The notes beneath the pieces are model-generated. The model had not been told where the DNA came from and ran no database searches. It was given only the letters and a program-made list of their open reading frames with translations. Source: Prosthecobacter debontii (GTDB taxonomy: Bacteria > Verrucomicrobiota > Verrucomicrobiia > Chthoniobacterales > Chthoniobacteraceae). Taken from it: DNA of 64,000 nt. Of this stretch, positions 26,653 to 61,259 are shown one piece after another. The translations under genes were made by a program, and so were the position numbers. Where the stretch lies: positions 1 to 64,000 of the forward strand of contig CAMAUI010000002.1 of NCBI GenBank assembly GCA_945861385.1. Reading direction: 5' to 3'. Every line of letters starts with the position of its first letter. The stretch's first letter is position 1.

Positions 26653-28092
26653 ATGAATTGTCCCGGACATGGCACACCCCTGCTTTCCACGCGCCGCGAG
26701 TTCCTGTGGCGCGCGGGTGGCGGCGTGGGCGGCATCGCGCTCGCGGCGATGCTCGCCCGCGAGTCGCGCGCCGCCGATGCGCTCGCGGTGCGGCGTCCGC
26801 ATTTCCCCGCGAAGGCAGTGCGGGTGATCGAGATTTTCTGCCCCGGCGGGGTCAGCCACGTGGATACGTGGGACTACAAACCGGAACTGGAAAAGGCGCA
26901 CGGAAAGGAATTCGACGCGGAACTGGGGAAGCAGACCTTCGCGGGCGTCGCGGGAAAATATGCGAAGAGCTTCTGGCCGTTCCGCCAGCACGGGCAGTGC
27001 GGGCGCTGGATGAGCGACCTTTTTCCAAAGCTCGCCGCGCATGTGGACGACATTGCGTTCATCCACTCGATGCAGAGCAAGTCCGCGCTGCACGGCCCTG
27101 CGATGTTCATGATGAACAGCGGCTTTCTGCTGCCGGGTTTCCCGAGCATGGGCGCGTGGGTCACCTACGGACTCGGCAGCGAGAACGCGGATCTGCCGGC
27201 GTTCGTCGTGCTGCCCGACACACGCGGCCTGCCGCCGGGCGGCGTGGTGAACTGGGGAGCGGGATTCCTCCCGGCGGTGCATCAGGGCACGGTGATCGAG
27301 ACGGCTGCCGGCAGGCCGCCGATCGCGGATCTTTTCCCCGCCCAGCCGCGCGAGGCGGAGCAGGACGGGCGGGACTTTTTGAAAACGCTGAACGCCGCCC
27401 ACGCTGCCGCGCGTCCCGGCGACACGATGCTCGAAGCCCGCATCGCGAGCTACGAACTCGCCGCCCGTCTCCAGCTCTCGGCGCCCGAAGCGGTGGACAT
27501 CGCGCGGGAGAGCGACGCCACGCGCTCACTCTACGCGCTCGGCGATGAGAGCGCGGGGCCGTTCGGCCGCCAGTGCCTGCTCGCGCGCCGTCTCGTCGAG
27601 CGCGGGGTGCGCTTCGTCCAGATTTATTGCGGGGCGGAAAACACCCAGGCGAAAAAAATCCGCCCGAACTGGGACAGCCACGAGGACATCGTGCGCGACC
27701 ATGGCTACTGGGGCCGCGTGCTCGACACCGGCGCGAGCGCGCTGCTGGCGGACCTGAAGTCACGGGGGCTGCTCGACTCGACGCTGGTGATCTGCACGTC
27801 GGAATTCGGACGGCAGCCTTTCATGCAGGGGAAGCAGAAGGGCCGGGATCACAATCCCGGCGCGTTCACCGCGTGGATGGCCGGCGGCGGCATCCGGGGC
27901 GGCGTGGCGTTTGGCGCGAGCGACGATTACGGCTTCAAGGCTGCGGTCAAACCCACCTACTGCTACGACCTTCACGCCACCGCGCTGCACCTGCTCGGCC
28001 TCGATCATGAGCGCGTGACTTTCTACCACAATGGCATCAAGCGCCGGCTTACCGATGTGCATGGGCATGTCTTCAAGGAGGTGTGCGCGTGA
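26653..28092 (+). CDS. DUF1501 Tat-exported sulfatase-fold protein
   Basis: 479-residue DUF1501 protein. Start ATG 26653; the twin-arginine signal is STRREFLWRAGGGVGGI. EIFCPGGVSHVDTWDYKPEL is the family's opening signature (alkaline-phosphatase/sulfatase-like fold), and later blocks are IHSMQSKSALHGPAMFMMNS, PNWDSHEDI, TLVICTSEFGRQPF and DHNPGAFTAWMAGGGIRGG. DUF1501 genes nearly always pair with PSCyt1/DUF1549/DUF1553 genes in Planctomycetes and Verrucomicrobia, probably for polysaccharide breakdown, though the reaction is not known. It overlaps the next gene by four bases (GTGA), so translation is likely coupled. Confidence 0.9.
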   Translation: MNCPGHGTPLLSTRREFLWRAGGGVGGIALAAMLARESRAADALAVRRPHFPAKAVRVIEIFCPGGVSHVDTWDYKPELEKAHGKEFDAELGKQTFAGVAGKYAKSFWPFRQHGQCGRWMSDLFPKLAAHVDDIAFIHSMQSKSALHGPAMFMMNSGFLLPGFPSMGAWVTYGLGSENADLPAFVVLPDTRGLPPGGVVNWGAGFLPAVHQGTVIETAAGRPPIADLFPAQPREAEQDGRDFLKTLNAAHAAARPGDTMLEARIASYELAARLQLSAPEAVDIARESDATRSLYALGDESAGPFGRQCLLARRLVERGVRFVQIYCGAENTQAKKIRPNWDSHEDIVRDHGYWGRVLDTGASALLADLKSRGLLDSTLVICTSEFGRQPFMQGKQKGRDHNPGAFTAWMAGGGIRGGVAFGASDDYGFKAAVKPTYCYDLHATALHLLGLDHERVTFYHNGIKRRLTDVHGHVFKEVCA

Positions 28093-31000
28093 AAGCAGCC
28101 ATCATCGCTCCGCGTGATGCAGCGCCCGCAAGCGCCAGCAGCGTCCCATGTCATTCCAGCGCCGCCCGCAATGGCCGCGCGCAACGCATCACGCGGAGCG
28201 GTGATGGCTACTTTGCGCTGCTCGCCCTGCTCGCGCTGCTCGCACCGTTCGCTGCGCAGGCGGTGGATTTTGAAAAAGACATCCGCCCCGTGCTGCGCGA
28301 GCGGTGCGTGGAATGTCACGGCGCAGAGAAACAAAAGGCCGGCCTCCGCCTCGACGCTCGCTCGCTCGCGCTGAAAGGTGGCGACGACGGCCCCGTAATC
28401 GTCGCGGGCAAGAGCGCGGAGAGCGCGATTTTCCAGCGCATCACGAGCACCGACAAAGACGAGCGGATGCCGTCGAAAGGCGATCCGCTCACCGCCACGC
28501 AAATCGCCGCGTTTCGCGAGTGGCTCGACGCCGGCGCTGCGTGGCCGGAGACCGCCGCTGACATCGCCGCCGCACGCGACAAACGGCTCGATCATTGGGC
28601 GTGGCAGCCGGTGGCCAGCAAGCAGTTGCCTGTCGCCAGCGTTCAGTCACCCGCCGAGCACCTCTCACTCCTCAGCCAGCAAGTGGACACCATCGTCACT
28701 GCGAAACTCACCGAGCGTGGCATCAAGCCGCTTCCCGAGGCCGATGCGCGCACGCTCATCCGCCGCCTCTATTTCGATCTCACCGGACTCCCCCCGACAT
28801 TCGAGGAGGTCGCCGCTTTCGAGAAGGCATGCGATCGGACGGATCATTCGGATCAAGTCCGCTCCCTCGTGGACAAACTCCTCGCCTCCCCCGCGTATGG
28901 CGAACGCTGGGCGCGGCACTGGCTCGACATCGCACACTACGCCGACACGCACGGCTTCGAGCGCGACCAGCGGCGGGACAACGCATGGCGTTACCGCGAC
29001 TGGGTCATCCGCGCGCTGAATGACGACATGCCCTACGACGAGTTCCTGCGCCTGCAAGTCGCCGGCGACGCGCTGCATGCCGATCGCAGCGATGCCATCA
29101 TCGCGACAGGCTTCCTCGCCGCGGGGCCGTGGGATTTTGTCGGCCAGGTGGAGACACCAAGCCCCGTGCTCAAGCGCGCCGCGCGCGCCGACGACCTCGA
29201 CGACATGGTGACGCAGGTGATGACCGCCGCCTGCGGCGTCACGATCAACTGCGCGCGCTGCCACGACCACAAACTCGACCCGATTTCGCAGCGCGAATAC
29301 TACGCGCTCACCGCGGTATTCGCGGGCGTGAAACGCGCGGAACGTGATGCAGCCCCGCGGGGGATGAAAGCTGACGCCGGGGAAAGGCCGCGACTCTCCG
29401 CGGAACTCAGCGCCGTCAACAAACAGCTTGTGCAAATCGGACAGCGCGGCCTGGATCTCGCCGACATCGTCGGCGGCGGCGACGGCACGGGCACGGGCAA
29501 AATGGGCGCGGGCATCGGCCTGCAAACCGGGCAGCAGCAAATCGAAGGCATCGCCGGACAGCGCCCGAAGCCCAACGTGCCCACGCCGGTCGCGGGCGAC
29601 TTCATTGACTGCGTGCTGCTGCCGAATGGCGACGGCGCGGACGAAATCGCCGTGAGCACGACGGGCGTGAAAGTGCGCGGCGTGCCGCAGACGAGCGGTG
29701 AGACATGGGACGCGATTCGCAACGGCGCAATCATCCCGCAGGGCACGACAAAAATCGGCGCGACGGACTACGCCGCCGACGGTCACTCGCTGCTCGGCCT
29801 CCATGCAAACTCCGCGATCACATTCGATCTCACGCCCTTCCGCGCCGCGCTGAAAACGGGTGCGCTGCGGTTCCGCGCCGCTGTCGGCTACGGCGGGCGG
29901 CCCGCCGCCGGCATGGGCGCGGATGTACGCATCTTTGTGGACGGCGCGGGCGTGTTCCTGAGCGAGAACGTCGGCCCGAAAAGCGCGCCCGTGCCGGTGG
30001 ACATCGCACTCCCGGAGGGCGCGCGTTTCCTCACGCTGATGAGCACCGAGGGCCGCGACGGGAACATCGGCTTCGACCAAATCTTTTACGGCGACCCGCG
30101 CATCACCGCCGCCGTGCAGCCCGCACTCACAGTCCTGGAGAAAGCGGAATCCGGACGTCTCATGGCGCGGAAGGACGAGCTGGAAAAGAAGCTGAAACCC
30201 CTGCCCGCACCCGCGAAATCATTGGTTTTCGGAATCAAGGCCGAGCCGCCGCCCATCGTGAAACTCCAGCATCGCGGCAGTCCCGAGGATCTCCGCGAGG
30301 AAGTCGCTCCCGGCACGCTCGCGTGCGTGGTCAGTCTCAAGCCCGCGTTCGGCGGCGGCAAGCTCACCGACGCGGAGCGCCGGATCGCGCTCGCGAACTG
30401 GATCACCGACCCTGCGAACCCGCTCACGGCGCGCGTCATCGTGAACCGGCTATGGCATCACCACTTCGGCACCGGGCTCGTGGACACGCCAAGCGACTTC
30501 GGCCTCGGCGGCGGGCGGCCCTCGCATCCCGAGCTGCTCGATTTTCTCGCGGCGGAACTCATCGCGCAAAAGTGGTCGCTCAAGGCCATGCACCGGATCA
30601 TCTGCAACAGCGCCGCGTACCGGCGGGCGACGGCAGTAACCAGCGGTCTGTCGCGCGAAGGGAACAATGCCGCCACCGCGAAGGACGCCGCCAACCGCCT
30701 GCTCTGGCGTGGCCCTGCCCGGAGGCTCGATGCGGAGTCGGTGCGCGACGCCATCCTCGCCGTGAGCGGAAAATTGAACCGTGAGATGCACGGCCCCGGC
30801 TGGCGCGACTTCGACTACAAGGAGGAATACGCGCCCGTGTATTCCTACAAGACGCCCGACTCGCCCGCGCTGTGGCGGCGCAGCATCTACCGCTTCATCG
30901 TGCGCACGACGCCGCATCAACTGCTCACCACGCTCGACTGCGCGAACCCCTCGAACCTCACCCCCGCGCGCAACGTCACAACCACCGCCCTGCAATCGCT

Positions 31001-42463: not shown

Positions 42464-42928
42464 GCCCGAGCGTACATTTTTCAGGAGCCCCGGCAATCAT
42501 CCATTCGGCCGACTCCCGAAGCCATTTTCCGGGCGTGATTGGAAGTGAGTCCACCTGGAGGAGCAGAAAGGGCCGTGGAAGCTGGGGCGAAGGTGTGGAG
42601 AGGCGGCGCACAAGCGGCGACATTCCTGTCGCCGTCGCTGGTTGCGCCGGAGGCGCGCATGTTCCGGCAAGGTGGCGGGCGGTGGAGAGCGAGGGAAAAT
42701 TTTTGTCGCGAACAGTGCGCCGCCGCGTTGCCGAGGGTGTGCGCGCCTCCGGCGCATGTGCGGACGGCGACAGGAATGTCGCCGCTCCCTGCCGCCGCCT
42801 GCACGCTTGCGGACCGGAAATCAATCACGCCCCCATTTTTCCCGGGCTCGGATTTCCGCTTGACCCCCTTCCGCTCCCCGACATCATGCGCGCCTTTCTT
42901 GCCGGACACGGCTTTCACTACATTCCGC
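42464..42928. other. 465-base region holding a nested repeat element
   Basis: It lies between the divergent LamG and glycosyltransferase genes. Bases 42532-42831 are the repeat element described separately. The track frame that runs through it (from 42539) has element-derived, unlikely coding content. Confidence 0.6.
42532..42831. repeat. 300-bp nested palindromic repeat element
   Basis: Ends are inverted (ggcgtgattgg... and ...caatcacgcc). The outer 70 and 50 bases match the short copy at 39743-39865 in opposite orientation. The inner part carries perfect inverted repeats: 42614-42636 (gcggcgacattcctgtcgcc...) with 42763-42785 (23 of 23), and 42644-42658 (gcgccggaggcgcgc) with 42741-42755 (15 of 15). 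It encodes no recognisable transposase and looks like a non-autonomous element with a second hairpin unit inserted. Confidence 0.85.
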
Positions 42929-54007: not shown

Positions 54008-56032
54008 TTACAGTTCGAGGATGGTGAATTCGACCCTGCGGTTCACAGCCTTATTCTCAGCAGTGGTATTCGGAACCTGCGGCATGGATTCGCCGAATCC
54101 CTTTGAAGAAAGTCTGCCGGCATTCACGCCCTGCTTGGTCAGGTAATCGGAGACGGCAGTCGCCCTTTTCCTGCTCAATTCGAGATTGTATGCATCGCTC
54201 GCATCACTGTCGGTATGCCCGGCGATCGCGATCTTGAGCGTGGGCTGTTGGTTCATGAGCGTGACCACGCGATCGAGCTCGGGAAAGGAGGTCGGTTTCA
54301 AAACCGCTTTGTTGGTGTCGAAGAAAATGTTGTTCAGGCGAATGACTGCGCCTTTCTCAAGAGGGACAAGATAGAGATCCTTTTTGATCTCGGTGAACTT
54401 CTCCAGCACCGGCAGGTTGAGGTTTGCACTCACGGAGGCGTAGCGGGGTGTTTCCGCGAGGAAGCCGTAGTTGGCTCCGCCGGGGAGAACGATCGTGTAG
54501 TGCCCATCCTTCGCGTCGCTGAAAGCAGTGCCAAGCTTGGCGCCGGTCGCCAGATTTTCACAAACGATCCTGGCTGCGATGGGCAGTCCGGTTTTCTTGT
54601 CAAGGGTGCGGCCACTCACGAGGACGACGGGCTTGGGCCGAAGCGCATCGGGCAGCTTGATCCGGAAAATGTCGGTGGAACCGAGGCTGTTTTCTTCCGA
54701 CACGCAATAGGCGTAAGTGCCGCTCGCGGGCATGGAGTAATAGGCGTCCCACCTCGGCGTGTTCAATTCCGGGCCAAGGTTGACCGGCAGTGACCAGTTG
54801 AGCCAGGTGTCATCCAGTCTTCTCGTGACAAACATGTCGTTGCGGCCAAAGCCCGGGTGTCCCGCAGTGCTGAAATACATGGTCGCACCGTCCGCAGCGA
54901 TGAATGGCGAGGTTTCATTGTCCGCGGTATTCAATGCGGCGCCGATGTTCCTCGGCTCCGTCCATGAGCCGTCGGCTTTGAGGAAAGACACGTGCAGATC
55001 CTTGCTGCCAAAGCCATCCTTTCGCTGGAGAGTTGCCACCATCACCTTCCCGCTGGGGGCGAGGCTGTACTCCGAATACTGGTTGTCGTTGTAAAAATCT
55101 TCCATTCTCACCGCCTTCGGCATGTCCCAGCCAGCCGCTCCCCTGCGTGCGATGGAGATGCCTTTCTCGAGCGAGCCGTCGGGCTTGTAAACGTTTAGCA
55201 CGAGCAATGAGTTATTGTCGGGCAGGATCGAGGCGACGGAGTTGTTGTCCGGGGTGTTGATCGGGAGTCCCATCGGTTTGCACGGGCCGAAAACTCCACC
55301 GGCTCCGATCTCCGAAAACCAGACGTCCTGCGACTCGATCGGCGGGGTGTTGTCGGGATGATTGGATCTGGTGAAATACAGCGTCTTGCCATCCGGCGAA
55401 ATCAACGGGCTGAACTCGTTCGTGGGGGAATTGATATTCGGCCCCAGGTTCTCGCGCGCAAAACCTGACTGCAGATTGGGAGGAAGGTTCACTTTCACCT
55501 GCACCTTGTCCTTGTGATCGGCGATGCCGATGGCATCGATCTGATTGAATCCGGAAACCGCCTTGCTGTTGAGTGTGACCTTGACCGACATCACGAGGTA
55601 GGGCGTGCGATCCATCGTGACGCTCAACATCCTCCCGACACTGCCCACCGCCTGCGGATTCTTGTTTTCGAAAACCCGATGAGCCGTGCCGCCTGCGTCA
55701 ATCAGGTCAACCAGCGTGATTGCACCCGGACTGAAATTCTCGTGAATCAGCACCTGCTGGATGTTTGCAGGCTGGGAAAAACCGACGTGGATGAATTCTT
55801 CCGCCAAGTCATCCTTCGTGGCGGGACTCCATGCGGCGGGGCTCAATCCAAACGATGAGGTGACGCTGGGACTGCCCAGAACATTGACCGCACTATATTG
55901 TTTGGGAGCGATGGGGTTCTCGCCTTCGGTGGAGAACGCGATCACTTTCGATGCCCATTGCACCTGCTGCGCGAAAACCGGCTGGCAGGCGCTGGCGAGG
56001 AGCAGCGATGACAAAAAGAGCCGGAGTTTCAC
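54008..56032 (-). CDS. PD40 propeller plus OmpA-type peptidoglycan-binding protein
   Basis: 674-residue exported protein. I prefer GTG 56032, which places the signal peptide (KLRLFLSSLLLASACQPVFA) at the N-terminus; ATGs at 56116 and 56137 would add an unrelated leader. After a discoidin-like N-terminal region, about 200-430 holds PD40 repeats (FSPLISPDGKTLYFTRSNHP, TSPFIAADGATMYFSTAGHP). About 455-540 is a CarboxypepD-reg-like beta domain (VLVSGRTLDKKTGLPIAARI). About 567-674 is an OmpA C-terminal domain (IFFDTNKAVLKPTSFPELDR, IAGHTDSDASDAYNLELSRK). It anchors the envelope to peptidoglycan. It resembles Bacteroidetes OmpA/PD40 proteins. Confidence 0.88.
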   Translation of the reverse strand: MKLRLFLSSLLLASACQPVFAQQVQWASKVIAFSTEGENPIAPKQYSAVNVLGSPSVTSSFGLSPAAWSPATKDDLAEEFIHVGFSQPANIQQVLIHENFSPGAITLVDLIDAGGTAHRVFENKNPQAVGSVGRMLSVTMDRTPYLVMSVKVTLNSKAVSGFNQIDAIGIADHKDKVQVKVNLPPNLQSGFARENLGPNINSPTNEFSPLISPDGKTLYFTRSNHPDNTPPIESQDVWFSEIGAGGVFGPCKPMGLPINTPDNNSVASILPDNNSLLVLNVYKPDGSLEKGISIARRGAAGWDMPKAVRMEDFYNDNQYSEYSLAPSGKVMVATLQRKDGFGSKDLHVSFLKADGSWTEPRNIGAALNTADNETSPFIAADGATMYFSTAGHPGFGRNDMFVTRRLDDTWLNWSLPVNLGPELNTPRWDAYYSMPASGTYAYCVSEENSLGSTDIFRIKLPDALRPKPVVLVSGRTLDKKTGLPIAARIVCENLATGAKLGTAFSDAKDGHYTIVLPGGANYGFLAETPRYASVSANLNLPVLEKFTEIKKDLYLVPLEKGAVIRLNNIFFDTNKAVLKPTSFPELDRVVTLMNQQPTLKIAIAGHTDSDASDAYNLELSRKRATAVSDYLTKQGVNAGRLSSKGFGESMPQVPNTTAENKAVNRRVEFTILEL

Positions 56033-56181
56033 CGCAAGGAATTTGCACTTGCGCCCGCCAGCGTCTGGACGAACAGAGGGCGGCTGCCGCTGGATTTTGT
56101 CCGATTCATCGCGCATGAGAGCCCCGTAGCAGCGCATGCAAGGCTCGCCAAGTGGAAAGGCTGCGACTGCGCTGATCGGAA

Positions 56182-59100
56182 TCATTCCGGAGCGCGCGGC
56201 GATTTCGCGCGCTCCATCTCCCCGGTCCTCAGCCACAGGAAAATCACCGGCGTGACGATGAGAATGTGGATGAGGCTGGAAATCATTCCGCCGATGACCG
56301 GCGTGGCAAGGGGCTTCATCACTTCAGCGCCCGTGCGCGTGCTCCACATGATCGGCAGCAGGCTTGCGACGATGGTGGCGACGGTCATCACCTTTGGGCG
56401 AAGACGGAGACGCGCGCCTTCCTTGATGGCGGCGACAAGATCGGCGCGCGCGCTCCACCGCCTCCTCGAGATATACAACCATCACCACACCCGTCTGGAT
56501 CGCGGTGCCGAAGAGCGCGATGTAGCCGACGGCGACGGCGGCGCTGAAGTTGTAGCCGAGCGCCCATTGCAAGAACACGCCACCCGTGAGCGCGAATGGC
56601 ACGGCGAGAATGACGTGAGCGGCCTCCTTCACGCTGCCGTACACAATGTAGAGCAGCAGGAAAATCACCGTAAGCACGCAAGGCACGACAAGCCACATGG
56701 TCTCGATGAGGCGAATCTGGTTTTCGTATTCGCCTGCAAACTCGAATTTCACTCCCGGCGGAAGCGGGATTTTGCCGACGCGCTCCTTCACCTCCGCGAC
56801 GAAGCCGGCGAGGTCCCGGCCCTGCACGTTCGCCTGCACGTAACTTTTCAGCCGCCCATTCTCGCTCTGGATTTCATTCGGCCCGCTCGTGCGCTTGATG
56901 GTCGCCACCTGGGCGAGCGGGATGTGCTTTCCGCCGGGTGTGGAGACAAGGATCGAGCCGAGGCGCTCGATATCGTCGCGCTCCTCCCGGGCGAGCCGCA
57001 CTTGGATGGGGATGCGCTTCCTTCCCTCGATGGTCGTCGCCACGATTCGCCCGCCAAGGCCGGCCTCAACCGCGGCGAAAAGTTGCTCCGCGCGCAGACC
57101 GAAACGCCCGGCGGCTTCGCGATCAATTTCGATTTCGAGATACGGTTTTCCCTGCACGCGCAGCGGCGAGACACCCGCTGCCCCGGGCACCTGTTGGATC
57201 GCGCGCTCAACCTCAAACGTGAGCCGCGAAAGCGTGTCGAGGTCGTCGCCGAGGATCTTCACGCCGAGTTGCGCGCGGATGCCGGTGGCCAGCATGAGGC
57301 GGCGGTTCTCGATCGGTTGTAAAAACGCACCGGGCACGTAGCCGGGAACCTGCGCGAGCTTTTCGGTCAGCTCGGCTTGCAGCTTCGCCAGCGTCATACC
57401 TGCACGCCATTGCACTTGCGGTTTCAGCATAATGGTCGTCTCGACCATCTCGACGGGTGCCGGGTCGGTCGCGGTGTCCGCGCGCCCCAGCTTGCCGCCG
57501 ACGCTCAGCACCTCGGGCACCTCGGCGATGACGCGATCCTGCCACGACATCACGCGCTTTACCTCCGTGAGGCTCGTCGTGGGGATGAACACCGGCATGA
57601 AAAGCAAGCTGCCCTCGTCGAGCGGCGGCATGAATTCACCGCCGATTCCGCTGAGCGCACTCTGCGCTTTTGGAAAAGCATCAAGCCTCGCAAGCACCGC
57701 GCGCGGCAGACCGAGCGCGAGCGTGAGCGCCATCGCGAGAAGCAGCGCGGCAAGGGCGAGGACGGTCTTGCGCCACCGCAGCGCCCAATCGAGCACGGGA
57801 TCGTAAATGCGGAGCAGCACCCGCATGACCCAGTTGTTTTCCTCGCGATGGAACGGCCCACGCACGAGCAGCGCGCACAACACCGGCACGATGGTCACGG
57901 CGAGCAGCGTCGAGGCGATCATCGCGAAGGTCTTTGTGAATGCGAGCGGGTGGAACAATTTTCCCTCCTGCCCTTCGAGCGCGAACACCGGCACGAACGC
58001 CAGGATGATGATCGCCATCGCGAAGAAGATCGGGCGGCCCACTTGCTTCGCGGCGCGCAAGGTGACCTCCCAAGTCTCGGCAGCGGTGAGGCGCGCAGCG
58101 TCCGGGTGGAGCACGCGACTCGCCGGGAACACTACGGGAGAGGTGGCATCGCCAGAAGCCTCCCGAGTCCCGGCAGCGCACTCCGCTTGCGAGCCTGCCT
58201 GCGGCGTTTGCGGCCCGTCGCCGCAAACTGCACGCGAGTCGCGTGCTCCACCCGGGGCAGCGGCGCATCGCGCCTTTTCCAGCTCCGCCTCCTCGCAGTG
58301 CCGGATGACATTTTCCGTGATGACGATGGCCGCATCCACAAGAACGCCGATGGCAATGGCGATACCGGCGAGCGACATGATGTTCGACGTGATGCCAAAC
58401 TGCCGCATCATCACAAACGCGATAAGGATGCTCACCGGCAGCGGAAAAGTAACGATCAGGATGCTGCGGAAATGGAACAGGAAGATGATATGCGCGAGGG
58501 TGACGAGGATGACCTCCTCGATGAGCGCGTGCTTGAGCGTGCCAATGGTGCGGTCAATCAACTCGCTGCGGTCATAGAAAGGCTTGATGCTGACGCCCGC
58601 CGGGAGGCCCGGCGCGATGCGGGCGATTTCCTCTTTCACTGCCTTGATGACGGCGTGCGCGTTTTCGCCAGTGCGCATCACGACGACGCCGCCGACGACT
58701 TCGTGTCCGTTCACATCGAGCGCGCCGCGGCGGAAATCGCCGCCGATCCCGATGCGCGCGACATCGCGCAGGTAGATGGGCGTGCCTTCGCGCTCGCGGA
58801 GGACGACATTTTCGAGATCGGCGGCGCTTTTCACCAAGCCCAGCCCACGCACGACGAACTCCATGCCGTTTTCCTCGATGACCTTTCCGCCGACGTTGAG
58901 ATTGCTCTCGCCGACCGCGGCCATGACTTCGTCGAGCGAGACGCCAGCGGCTTTCATTTTCAAAGATGACACCTCGATCTGCCACTGCCGCACGAAACCC
59001 CCGACACTCGCAACCTCCGCGACGCCGGGCACGCTTTGCAGCGCGTAGCGGATGAAAAAATCCTGCTCCGCACGCAGGCGCCCGAGGTCGTAGGTGCCCT

Positions 59101-59548
59101 GCGCGGGATCCACATCCAAGTAGTATTGATACACCCATCCAAGGCCGCTCGCGTCCGGGCCGAGCTTCGGCGAGACGCCGGGAGGCAGCGAGTCGCCGAT
59201 GGAGTTGAGCCGCTCGAGCACGCGCGAACGGGCGAAATAATTGTCCACGTCGTCGCGGAAAATCACGGTGAGCAACGAAAAGCCGAACATGCTCTGCGCA
59301 CGGACGGCCTTCACGCCTGCGAGGCCCTGGAGCTGCGTCGAGAGCGGATACGTCACCTGATCCTCGACCTCACGCGGAGCGCGGCCTGGCCAGTCGGCGA
59401 AGACGATAACCTGATTTTCGCTCAGGTCGGGGATGGCATCCACCGGCGCGCGGCGCACCTCGAAGATTCCGAGCGCGATGAGCAACAGCGTCCCGCAGCC
59501 GACAAGGAAGCGATTGCGGAGGGACCATTCGATGAGCGTGGGAATCAT
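56182..59548 (-). pseudogene. cusA: CusA-type heavy-metal RND efflux pump, frameshifted near the 3' end
   Basis: Inner-membrane proton-driven efflux pump of the HME-RND class (Cu, Ag, Co, Zn or Ni). The N-terminus is canonical (MIPTLIEWSLRNRFLVGCGT, VIVFADWPGRAPREVEDQVT). RSILIVTFPLPVSILIAF and VLVDAAIVITENVIRH mark the central membrane region, and the periplasmic and C-terminal halves are complete. At about residue 1033 a single missing base in the gcgcgcgcgc run (56443-56453) shifts the frame. The frame then continues in 56182-56478 ([39 protein letters not shown]). About 50 residues between 431 and 482 are a palindromic insert. If the shift is real, the last two membrane helices are lost; if it is a sequencing error, the gene is intact (about 1120 residues). 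cusB lies just upstream. Confidence 0.88.
58102..58255. repeat. Palindromic element inserted in frame in cusA
   Basis: Perfect 22-bp inverted arms: 58102-58123 (ccgggtggagcacgcgactc...) and 58234-58255. A second hairpin lies inside, gtttgcggc/gccgcaaac with loop ccgtc (58206-58228). It encodes the extra segment absent from other CusA proteins between the ENVIRHCEE helix and the AAKQVGRPIFF helix. Confidence 0.85.
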
Positions 59549-59600
59549 GGCAGCGTATAAGTGGCGCGAGCTTTTGGAGTGGGGCGCTCATGGGCGACCT

Positions 59601-61259
59601 TCACGGGCGCACCTCCGCTCCACACTCGAGCATCTCGGCGCCCCACCACGGGTTTCTCAGGTCGGCTTCGAACTGGATCCAGTGGCCGCGCTCTTTCGGC
59701 GCGCTTGGCACGTTTCCCTTCGCCATGTCGCACGCGAAGACGCGCACGGCGTCAAGGCCGGAGGACTCGCGACGCAGGGCCAGGGCAAATTCGGCGGCGG
59801 CTTCGCTGAGCGGGTAGAAGGCGGCGCGTTGTTCCGACAGCGCGGCGGCGTCGGGGAGCTTTGCGAGGGCGGCGAGCTTTTCGGCGCGGTCTCCGAAGGC
59901 CGGGCGCAGCGCGGCGGCGGGTGCGGCGACCTTTGCGGCGGCTGCACGGAAGTCGGCGGGCTTGTCGGCTGCAAGCGACTGCGAGAGCGCATTGAGCGCG
60001 GTGAAGAAATCGAGCGCGGCTTTTCGCTGCGCGTCGGTGAGCGCGGGCTTTGGCGGCTCGGCGGGGTGGTTGATTTGCGACTGCCCGTCGAGAAGCAGAT
60101 TGCCGGCGGTCACGATGCGCTCGTTCTCGCGGAGGCCGCCCGCGATTTCCCAGACATCATCGCCCGCGACGCCGACCTGCACGTCGCGCGGCTCGTACAC
60201 GCCCGCACTTTTCTCCACGTACACGAGCGGACGGCCCGCGGGCCACAGCACGGCGGCGCGCGGGGCGGTGAGCGTCGGCGCGGTCTCGGCAGTGATGCGG
60301 CCCTCGGCATAAAGCTTGTGCAGCAGTTCGTGGCGGTGCTTGCCGGGTTCGTTCGTCGGCGCGTTATCGAGGACGACGCGCACTTTCGCGCTGCGCGTCT
60401 CCATGTTGAGATTCGGATCAATGAACGCGACCGGCGCACGCAGCACGCGGCCCGGCAGCGCGGGTGTGGTGACTTCCACTTCGGCACCCATGCGAATCCA
60501 CGGCAGGTCGCGTTCGTAGGCGTCGAAGACGAACCACATCTTCGAAAAGTCCGCGACCTCGAACAGCATATCCCCCTCCTTCACGTACTGGCCTTCGTAC
60601 ACATTGCGCGCGACGACGGTGCCGGTGATGGGCGCGAGGACTTTCAGCTCCTCCGGCAGTTTGCCGCCAGCAGCGTCAATCTCCGCGGCGGAAATGCCGG
60701 CGCGCAGCAGTCGCTCGCGGAGTCCGGCGAGTAATTGCTCGCGCTGCGGCGACGCGGGCTGCTGCACGACAGACTGATACTCGGCGATTTTTGTCCTCAG
60801 CGATGGGCTGTAGAGCGTGGCGAGCGGCTGGCCGGCGATGACCTCGGCACCGACAAAATTCACGAAGAGCTTCTCGACACGCCCATCCGCCGTCGCACTG
60901 AGGCGGCGGTGCGCGCTGTCGTCGTCGTCTATCATCCCGGCGACGCGGATCGTGCGCCGGATGGTCTTTTTCACCACCGGCGCGGTTTCGATGCCGGTCA
61001 CGGTGACGCCGCTTTTTCCGAGCGTGATGAGCGGGGAGTTCACGTCGAAGCCTGCGTCGCCCTCGTAAACGGGTGACAGTTCCATGCCGCAAATCGTGCA
61101 GCGGCCGGGCTTGTCGGACTTCACCCACGGGTGCATCGAGCTTTGGTAAAAGAGCGGCTTGCGCGCGGGAGCGGCGGGTGCGGCGAGATGCCGCGTGGTG
61201 AGCCACGTCGCCGGCACGGCGAAGGCAAGCGTGATCAGGATGACGATGGGCGTTTTCAT
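59601..61259 (-). CDS. cusB: CusB-type periplasmic adaptor with metal-binding and DUF3347 domains
   Basis: 552-residue membrane-fusion protein linking the RND pump to an outer-membrane channel. It has an N-terminal anchor/signal (VILITLAFAVPATWLTTRHL). A heavy-metal-binding domain lies at about 38-68 (YQSSMHPWVKSDKPGRCTIC, with the Met-His-Pro and Cys-x2-Cys). The barrel-sandwich and beta-barrel follow (RRLSATADGRVEKLFVNFVG, PITGTVVARNVYEGQYVKEG, GGLRENERIVTAGNLLLDGQ). About 410-550 resembles DUF3347 (ALDFFTALNALSQSLAADKP, NPWWGAEMLECGAEV). The gene precedes cusA by about 50 bases. The Cys-rich protein gene precedes it by about 175. Confidence 0.9.
   Translation of the reverse strand: MKTPIVILITLAFAVPATWLTTRHLAAPAAPARKPLFYQSSMHPWVKSDKPGRCTICGMELSPVYEGDAGFDVNSPLITLGKSGVTVTGIETAPVVKKTIRRTIRVAGMIDDDDSAHRRLSATADGRVEKLFVNFVGAEVIAGQPLATLYSPSLRTKIAEYQSVVQQPASPQREQLLAGLRERLLRAGISAAEIDAAGGKLPEELKVLAPITGTVVARNVYEGQYVKEGDMLFEVADFSKMWFVFDAYERDLPWIRMGAEVEVTTPALPGRVLRAPVAFIDPNLNMETRSAKVRVVLDNAPTNEPGKHRHELLHKLYAEGRITAETAPTLTAPRAAVLWPAGRPLVYVEKSAGVYEPRDVQVGVAGDDVWEIAGGLRENERIVTAGNLLLDGQSQINHPAEPPKPALTDAQRKAALDFFTALNALSQSLAADKPADFRAAAAKVAAPAAALRPAFGDRAEKLAALAKLPDAAALSEQRAAFYPLSEAAAEFALALRRESSGLDAVRVFACDMAKGNVPSAPKERGHWIQFEADLRNPWWGAEMLECGAEVRP

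Follow-up and report, generated by a model that had tools for sequence, protein, structure and literature searches.

The window, a stretch of 64,000 nucleotides, carries a cusA gene whose reading frame passes through a palindromic element. This raises the question of what kind of element it is, how it came to lie within a protein and what moved it there. The features on which the answer depends are as follows.

56324-59548, minus strand: cusA (RND heavy-metal efflux pump), an ORF of 1074 aa matching ACR_tran at E = 5.6e-214, with the frame unbroken through the insert.
58094-58273, minus strand: the whole cusA insert, 60 codons in place of two (GH) at the empty site, as defined by DNA alignment with the empty allele of G004 (L111) and the occupied allele of G020 (L109) and by the break of the match in 38 relatives.
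58102-58133, plus strand: the second REP, inverted and shortened, in which comparison with complete family members places hairpin 1 directly against the end of hairpin 2.
58134-58205, minus strand: the spacer between the two REPs, defined by alignment and not common to the cusA element of G020.
58206-58255, minus strand: the intact REP, with tag GGGTGG, hairpin 1 GCACGCGACTCGCGTGC and hairpin 2 TTTGCGGCGACGGGCCGCAAA, forming 12 of the 13 pairs of a two-hairpin model derived from 98 RAYT-flanking REPs.
58207-58227, no strand assigned: the inner 9-bp hairpin, which by sequence and fold is hairpin 2 of the intact REP.

Both palindromic features described by the initial annotation were recovered, as the 22-bp arms are perfect (58102-58123 and 58234-58255; 22 nt, 100% complementary) and the inner 9-bp hairpin is present (TTTGCGGCCCGTCGCCGCAAA, 58207-58227). 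The insert is slightly wider than first reported (approximately 58094-58273), because short flanking stretches are also part of it. Relative to the empty allele of the same-genus genome G004, the net insertion amounts to 174 bp (58 codons) and is in frame. G004 also encodes the closest CusA (93% identity over the first 425 residues), with the empty site reading ...EKERGHRLS..., and in 38 related genomes the CusA matches are interrupted at query residues of about 425 and 485. The CusA structures 4dnr and 3k07 align on both sides of the insert and place the junction at CusA residues 428/432. From the topology of RND pumps, we take residues 428-432 to be the cytoplasmic loop between TM4 and TM5. 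The alignment to relatives and the empty site of G004 bear out the proposal of an exact in-frame insertion that adds a loop between two conserved membrane helices, and most other CusA proteins are without this loop. Disorder of the added loop is only presumed, because a pLDDT of 39.7 made the AlphaFold model predicted from the single CusA sequence unusable. The CusA loop site is tolerant of insertion: in the cusA gene of G020 (uncultured Chthoniobacter sp.) the identical position is occupied by an insert of 168 bp, whose 22-bp arms are related but whose hairpin subtype and spacer are different, and the same-genus genomes G003 and G005 (L112 and L110) carry an 87-bp insert in the same loop with unrelated palindromic ends (arms AGTGCTCAGTGCTCAGTGC).

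The insert in cusA is a REP dimer, built of the tag GGGTGG and two hairpins, with one half shortened. Its strand folds at -112.3 kcal/mol, compared to a shuffled mean of -81.3 (z = -7.3), and the cusA REP has a GT[AG]G tag at its end, adjoined by a palindromic stem (GGGTGGAGCACGCGACTCGCGTGC). The sequence of the second REP is consistent with an in-frame deletion between two CGACTCG loop repeats, whose size would be 21 bp. In-frame REPs and REP dimers have been published (Di Nocera et al. 2013, PMC3733652), with GTAG-type cases most numerous in Opitutus terrae, whose GTAG-20 family includes a GTGG form of the tag, according to the sections of that paper considered here. Taken alone, the cusA element is a further example of these published in-frame REP dimers and nothing new in kind. 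The occurrence of such inserts in a phylum other than that of Rickettsia, which had been pointed out, is not new, since the same sections already list in-frame REPs for O. terrae (Verrucomicrobia). The suggestion of a class of palindromic elements tolerated inside proteins, as in Rickettsia, holds insofar as a multi-copy palindrome lies in frame in cusA; the element belongs to the REP/RAYT world, and the likeness to the Rickettsia elements lies in its in-frame palindromic character. A DUF1553 gene had been named as another in-protein case, but the 38-nt inverted repeat in question (28092-28214) begins where the DUF1501 gene upstream of it stops, does not reach the PSCyt1 domain and is intergenic.

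A search of the own genome (G000, 4.29 Mb) with the cusA arm returned 41 matches at up to 2 mismatches and none for the reversed control, which established the arm as multi-copy. The structured pattern GTGGAGCANNNGAYYCNNNTGC occurs at 45 exact places in G000; copy numbers in this genome refer to such pattern searches. Copy number, the z-score of the fold and the empty sites rule out a unique or chance palindrome in cusA. We give practically no credence to the related reading that the insert is an old, lineage-specific loop that is palindromic by accident. G020 does have a loop at the same position of cusA, but the empty site in the closest relative G004 and the multi-copy arms already refute it.

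The copies in G000 are mostly inverted end pairs about 150-190 bp apart, and many contigs of this genome end within REP copies. Almost all of the 26 elements examined in G000 are intergenic, with cusA and recG as the clear in-gene cases. As the copies of the cusA family are mostly intergenic, this short element is only exceptionally tolerated within proteins. Only 7 of 16 two-ended copies examined have a length divisible by three, so that keeping the frame characterises those copies that survived within genes; across the strand-frame combinations of these 16 copies, the frame is kept without a stop in 27 of 96. A copy of the cusA type near the N-terminus of a penicillin-binding-like gene (L073, 2128-2283) is a possible third in-gene case. 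Within the window, another REP-like family is represented by a 47-nt inverted repeat (AGCGGCGACATTCCTGTCGCCG...) at 42613-42786, near the N-terminus of a glycosyltransferase ORF. Among relatives, the REP pattern was counted 65 times in G020, 16 times in G003, 12 times in G004 and 19 times in G005, with one pair in G049, and the pattern search found it absent from 51 other relatives.

The second clear in-gene case in G000 points to a probable source. Its recG contains an in-frame insert of 664 bp (contig C13, 29779-30442) that is bounded by the same arms as the cusA element and encodes a REP-associated tyrosine transposase (RAYT). RecG resumes exactly after the insert (query 396|641 versus 1gm5 455|455), and this is the only RecG detected in G000, while most relatives have a single RecG with an empty loop of variable length. 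The embedded domain matches NF047646 (REP-associated tyrosine transposase) over its full length with E = 3.3e-22 and 78.9 bits, the NCBIfam cut-off being 80, and its sole PDB match is 4er8 (TnpA-REP). A phage origin was ruled out, as there was no PHROG match. An intein was ruled out by the NCBIfam scan, which returned host and transposase families only and no splicing family, and an intron or structured RNA by the lack of any Rfam match at the gathering threshold in five related loci. In the window, the Rfam search of 56000-60000 gave only two matches, far below threshold and outside the cusA element.

G000 and G020, the two genomes richest in REP copies, are also those whose recG harbours this RAYT. 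This co-occurrence across relatives fits a mobilisation of the cusA REP by a recG-embedded RAYT. The REP subtypes differ: the cusA element has the GCG subtype, which also prevails in G003-G005, and the ends of the own recG element are of the CCC subtype. The recG copy may therefore not be the direct parent of the cusA element, which may be older than the recG element now in place. RecG of the same-genus genome G003 contains an in-frame scar without a RAYT but with the same terminal REP peptide, which offers a plausible route to short elements.

Residence of RAYTs in host genes extends well beyond this recG. G000 has further RAYTs in frame in alaS, clpB and thrS, and another adjoins recF; relatives of the family contribute additional cases in recG, alaS, clpB, priA, carB, hsdR and a methylase gene, and 3 of the 40 family genomes have this RAYT in RecG. 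Scanning 84,980 named species genomes gave 255 matches, of which the best 80 were taken; these correspond to 79 distinct loci and are biased to close relatives. Among the loci from these best 80 matches, all 79 are in Verrucomicrobiota by record title and comparison of the host flanks placed 74 in frame inside other proteins (41 in RecG, 29 in AlaS, one in CarB, one in a methylase and two in another long frame), leaving 5 stand-alone. The host of the two other long frames (L224 and L227) reads as similar to methionine synthase (MetH), with the RAYT apparently near the C-terminal part. In an even draw of 388 Verrucomicrobiota genomes, this RAYT subfamily was present in 8 genomes and all 10 loci were in long frames; the six loci outside G000 with an identified host were all in AlaS or RecG. 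Junctions in AlaS match human AlaRS 421|425, and host flanks are intact around the embedded RAYTs. In ClpB, RAYTs of a second subfamily separate the M-domain from NBD2 without breaking the frame; four family genomes show this arrangement (own clpB L102/L167; L159, L160 and L166). In two genomes (L165 and L158) a RAYT shares one frame with the start of RecF, either as an upstream fusion or as an overlapping frame.

The embedded RAYTs have retained the hallmarks of intact mobile elements. Inverted REPs were present at both ends of 60 of 63 testable RecG and AlaS inserts, versus none of 63 after shuffling. The 98 distinct RAYT-flanking REPs fit one register consisting of the tag GGG[G/T][A/G]G and two hairpins (13-pair model), in which 95.4% of stem cells are paired and 276 cells are compensatory, compared to a column-shuffle maximum of 75%. 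The HUH motif (xHxH) and the Y-x3-NP motif are each found in 83 of 87 aligned RAYT domains. In close pairs, dN/dS of the RAYT is 0.03-0.13, near or below that of the host, and that of the linkers is 0.13-0.55, with dS near saturation in several pairs. The embedded RAYTs are under purifying selection. In the AlphaFold model of one RecG-RAYT (L180), RecG is folded, the RAYT is folded at 416-552 and the linkers (346-414 and 553-592) have pLDDT below 50; Foldseek returned RecG 1gm5 as the top match of this model. Because the nearest upstream ATG is usually 60-120 codons away and within host sequence, most RAYT copies seem dependent on host translation.

The host sites have a history of both persistence and turnover. 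A tree built from 87 RAYTs requires 13 changes of host label, compared to 36 in shuffles, and for RecG and AlaS alike its well-supported branches make a minimum of four label changes necessary. Sister RecGs that are 97% identical hold, in the same loop, RAYTs that are 56% identical and have different REP ends, which rules out purely vertical inheritance of the RecG insert. From the tree and these sister RecGs it follows that the sites are lineage-stable to a degree, yet re-occupied by different elements.

Nearly all genomes analysed are metagenome assemblies, and repeats could have joined unrelated contigs, so that embedded RAYTs would be assembly chimeras or annotation artefacts. The thrS locus of G000 (C46:21968; L277, L285-L287) is the case that most resembles this: 5.8 kb upstream are 99.07% identical to G008, the identity stops exactly at the left edge of the in-frame RAYT, and beyond it is 83%. 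Either recombination at the RAYT element or a chimeric assembly may account for this case, and thrS was dropped as a lead example because of its mosaic flanks. The many contigs that end within REP copies also fit an artefact of this kind. As a general account it is nonetheless very improbable, given that in-frame insertions in the same loops recur in dozens of genomes from different projects with matching REP ends, that divergence is even on both sides of the own recG insert and of the own cusA insert, and that some embedded loci lie on contigs of 150-580 kb.

The observations to be explained comprise exact in-frame insertions, common REP ends, conserved catalytic motifs, purifying selection and re-use of sites. 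We consider it likely that, as the best explanation overall, the cusA element is a REP dimer mobilised by a RAYT lineage that lives in frame inside housekeeping proteins. A non-autonomous, REPIN-like REP dimer would have inserted into the cytoplasmic loop between TM4 and TM5 of CusA, where its length and frame allowed it to persist, since all that they add is a loop that does no harm and is probably disordered. Its mover was most likely a RAYT, an HUH/Y1 single-strand transposase, with the same REP ends. Rather than being a free gene, this RAYT lies within the reading frame of RecG, attached by two REP-encoded linkers predicted to be disordered, and belongs to a lineage that appears to reside in housekeeping proteins across Verrucomicrobiota, mainly RecG and AlaS, re-entering variable loops repeatedly. 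We infer that the fusion protein is made and acts on these REPs through its RAYT domain; short copies may arise through internal deletion, and residence in a host gene could give the transposase expression as well as protection from loss.

How far this residence is a way of life is a separate matter. There is about an even chance that conserved, mostly essential proteins are the normal home of the RAYT lineage, which would have largely lost its own start and stop, be produced solely as a domain tethered within RecG or AlaS, re-enter the same loops and seed REP dimers into genes such as cusA, in the manner of an intein without splicing. It is somewhat less probable that REP dimers and RAYTs land everywhere and that loop insertions which keep the frame simply persist, with no special benefit from residence in RecG or AlaS. 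The mostly intergenic copies of the cusA family suit such neutral survival, as do the variable length of the RecG loop among empty relatives and the 27 of 96 open strand-frame combinations, by which in-frame survival is not improbable. It is harder to reconcile with the fact that RecG and AlaS alone account for 70 of the 79 loci (from the best 80 of 255 matches), against only five stand-alone loci, with the re-occupation of the same RecG loop by different RAYTs in sister genomes and with a RAYT dN/dS far below that of the linkers. The strength of purifying selection, the conservation of the catalytic motifs inside hosts and the separate folding of the RAYT domain in the RecG model could also be taken to mean that the domain was recruited for RecG or AlaS, for instance for single-strand processing by RecG, with the REP families as by-products. 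Such a domesticated fusion is unlikely, because presence is patchy (RecG in 3 of 40 family genomes, the subfamily in 8 of 388 phylum-survey genomes), the two main hosts are unrelated, elements turn over at the site and the REP ends match the REP population of the genome.

The preferred reading, a RAYT lineage resident in housekeeping proteins, ties in-frame palindromic protein inserts to a concrete mobile system and describes an unexpected genomic niche, a transposase carried within RecG and AlaS. What looks new is this probable source of the cusA element; in the open-licence literature we found no earlier description of a RAYT or transposase resident in RecG or AlaS. It raises questions about the expression and retention of a selfish enzyme, the insertion tolerance of essential proteins and the upkeep of REP populations.

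Among known systems, the intragenic GTAG-class REP dimers (PMC3733652) resemble the cusA element in being tagged palindromes in inverted pairs that are mostly intergenic, with some in frame in ORFs, including those of a verrucomicrobium. They differ in that the inserts usually encode 20-30 aa and in that the sections of that paper considered here report no transposase gene inside housekeeping ORFs. Rickettsia palindromic elements (RPE) are likewise palindromic in-frame additions to proteins, but belong to a different sequence class and a different phylum. With RAYT/TnpA-REP (REPtrons; NF047646; PDB 4er8) the embedded RAYTs share the HUH and YIxxNP motifs, flanking inverted REPs and a cognate genomic REP population; unlike these, they have no stop and usually no ATG of their own nearby, and are read as a domain of RecG, AlaS, ThrS, ClpB, CarB, MetH or PriA. 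Inteins and homing elements offer the parallel of a mobile enzyme in frame in conserved genes at recurrent sites, whereas the embedded RAYTs show no splicing domain among the family hits and no known intron, their enzyme is a Y1 transposase and the insert should remain part of the protein. The authors of PMC6006769 described REPs lying in frame in tnpAREP genes; in the same paper unexpectedly long Y1 proteins were discarded as gene fusions or annotation errors. These long TnpAY1 proteins, likened here by description only, share with the embedded RAYTs their unexpected length and a Y1 domain, and our results suggest that proteins dismissed in this way may be real, as the flanks, REP ends and selection of the embedded RAYTs show genuine in-frame insertions.
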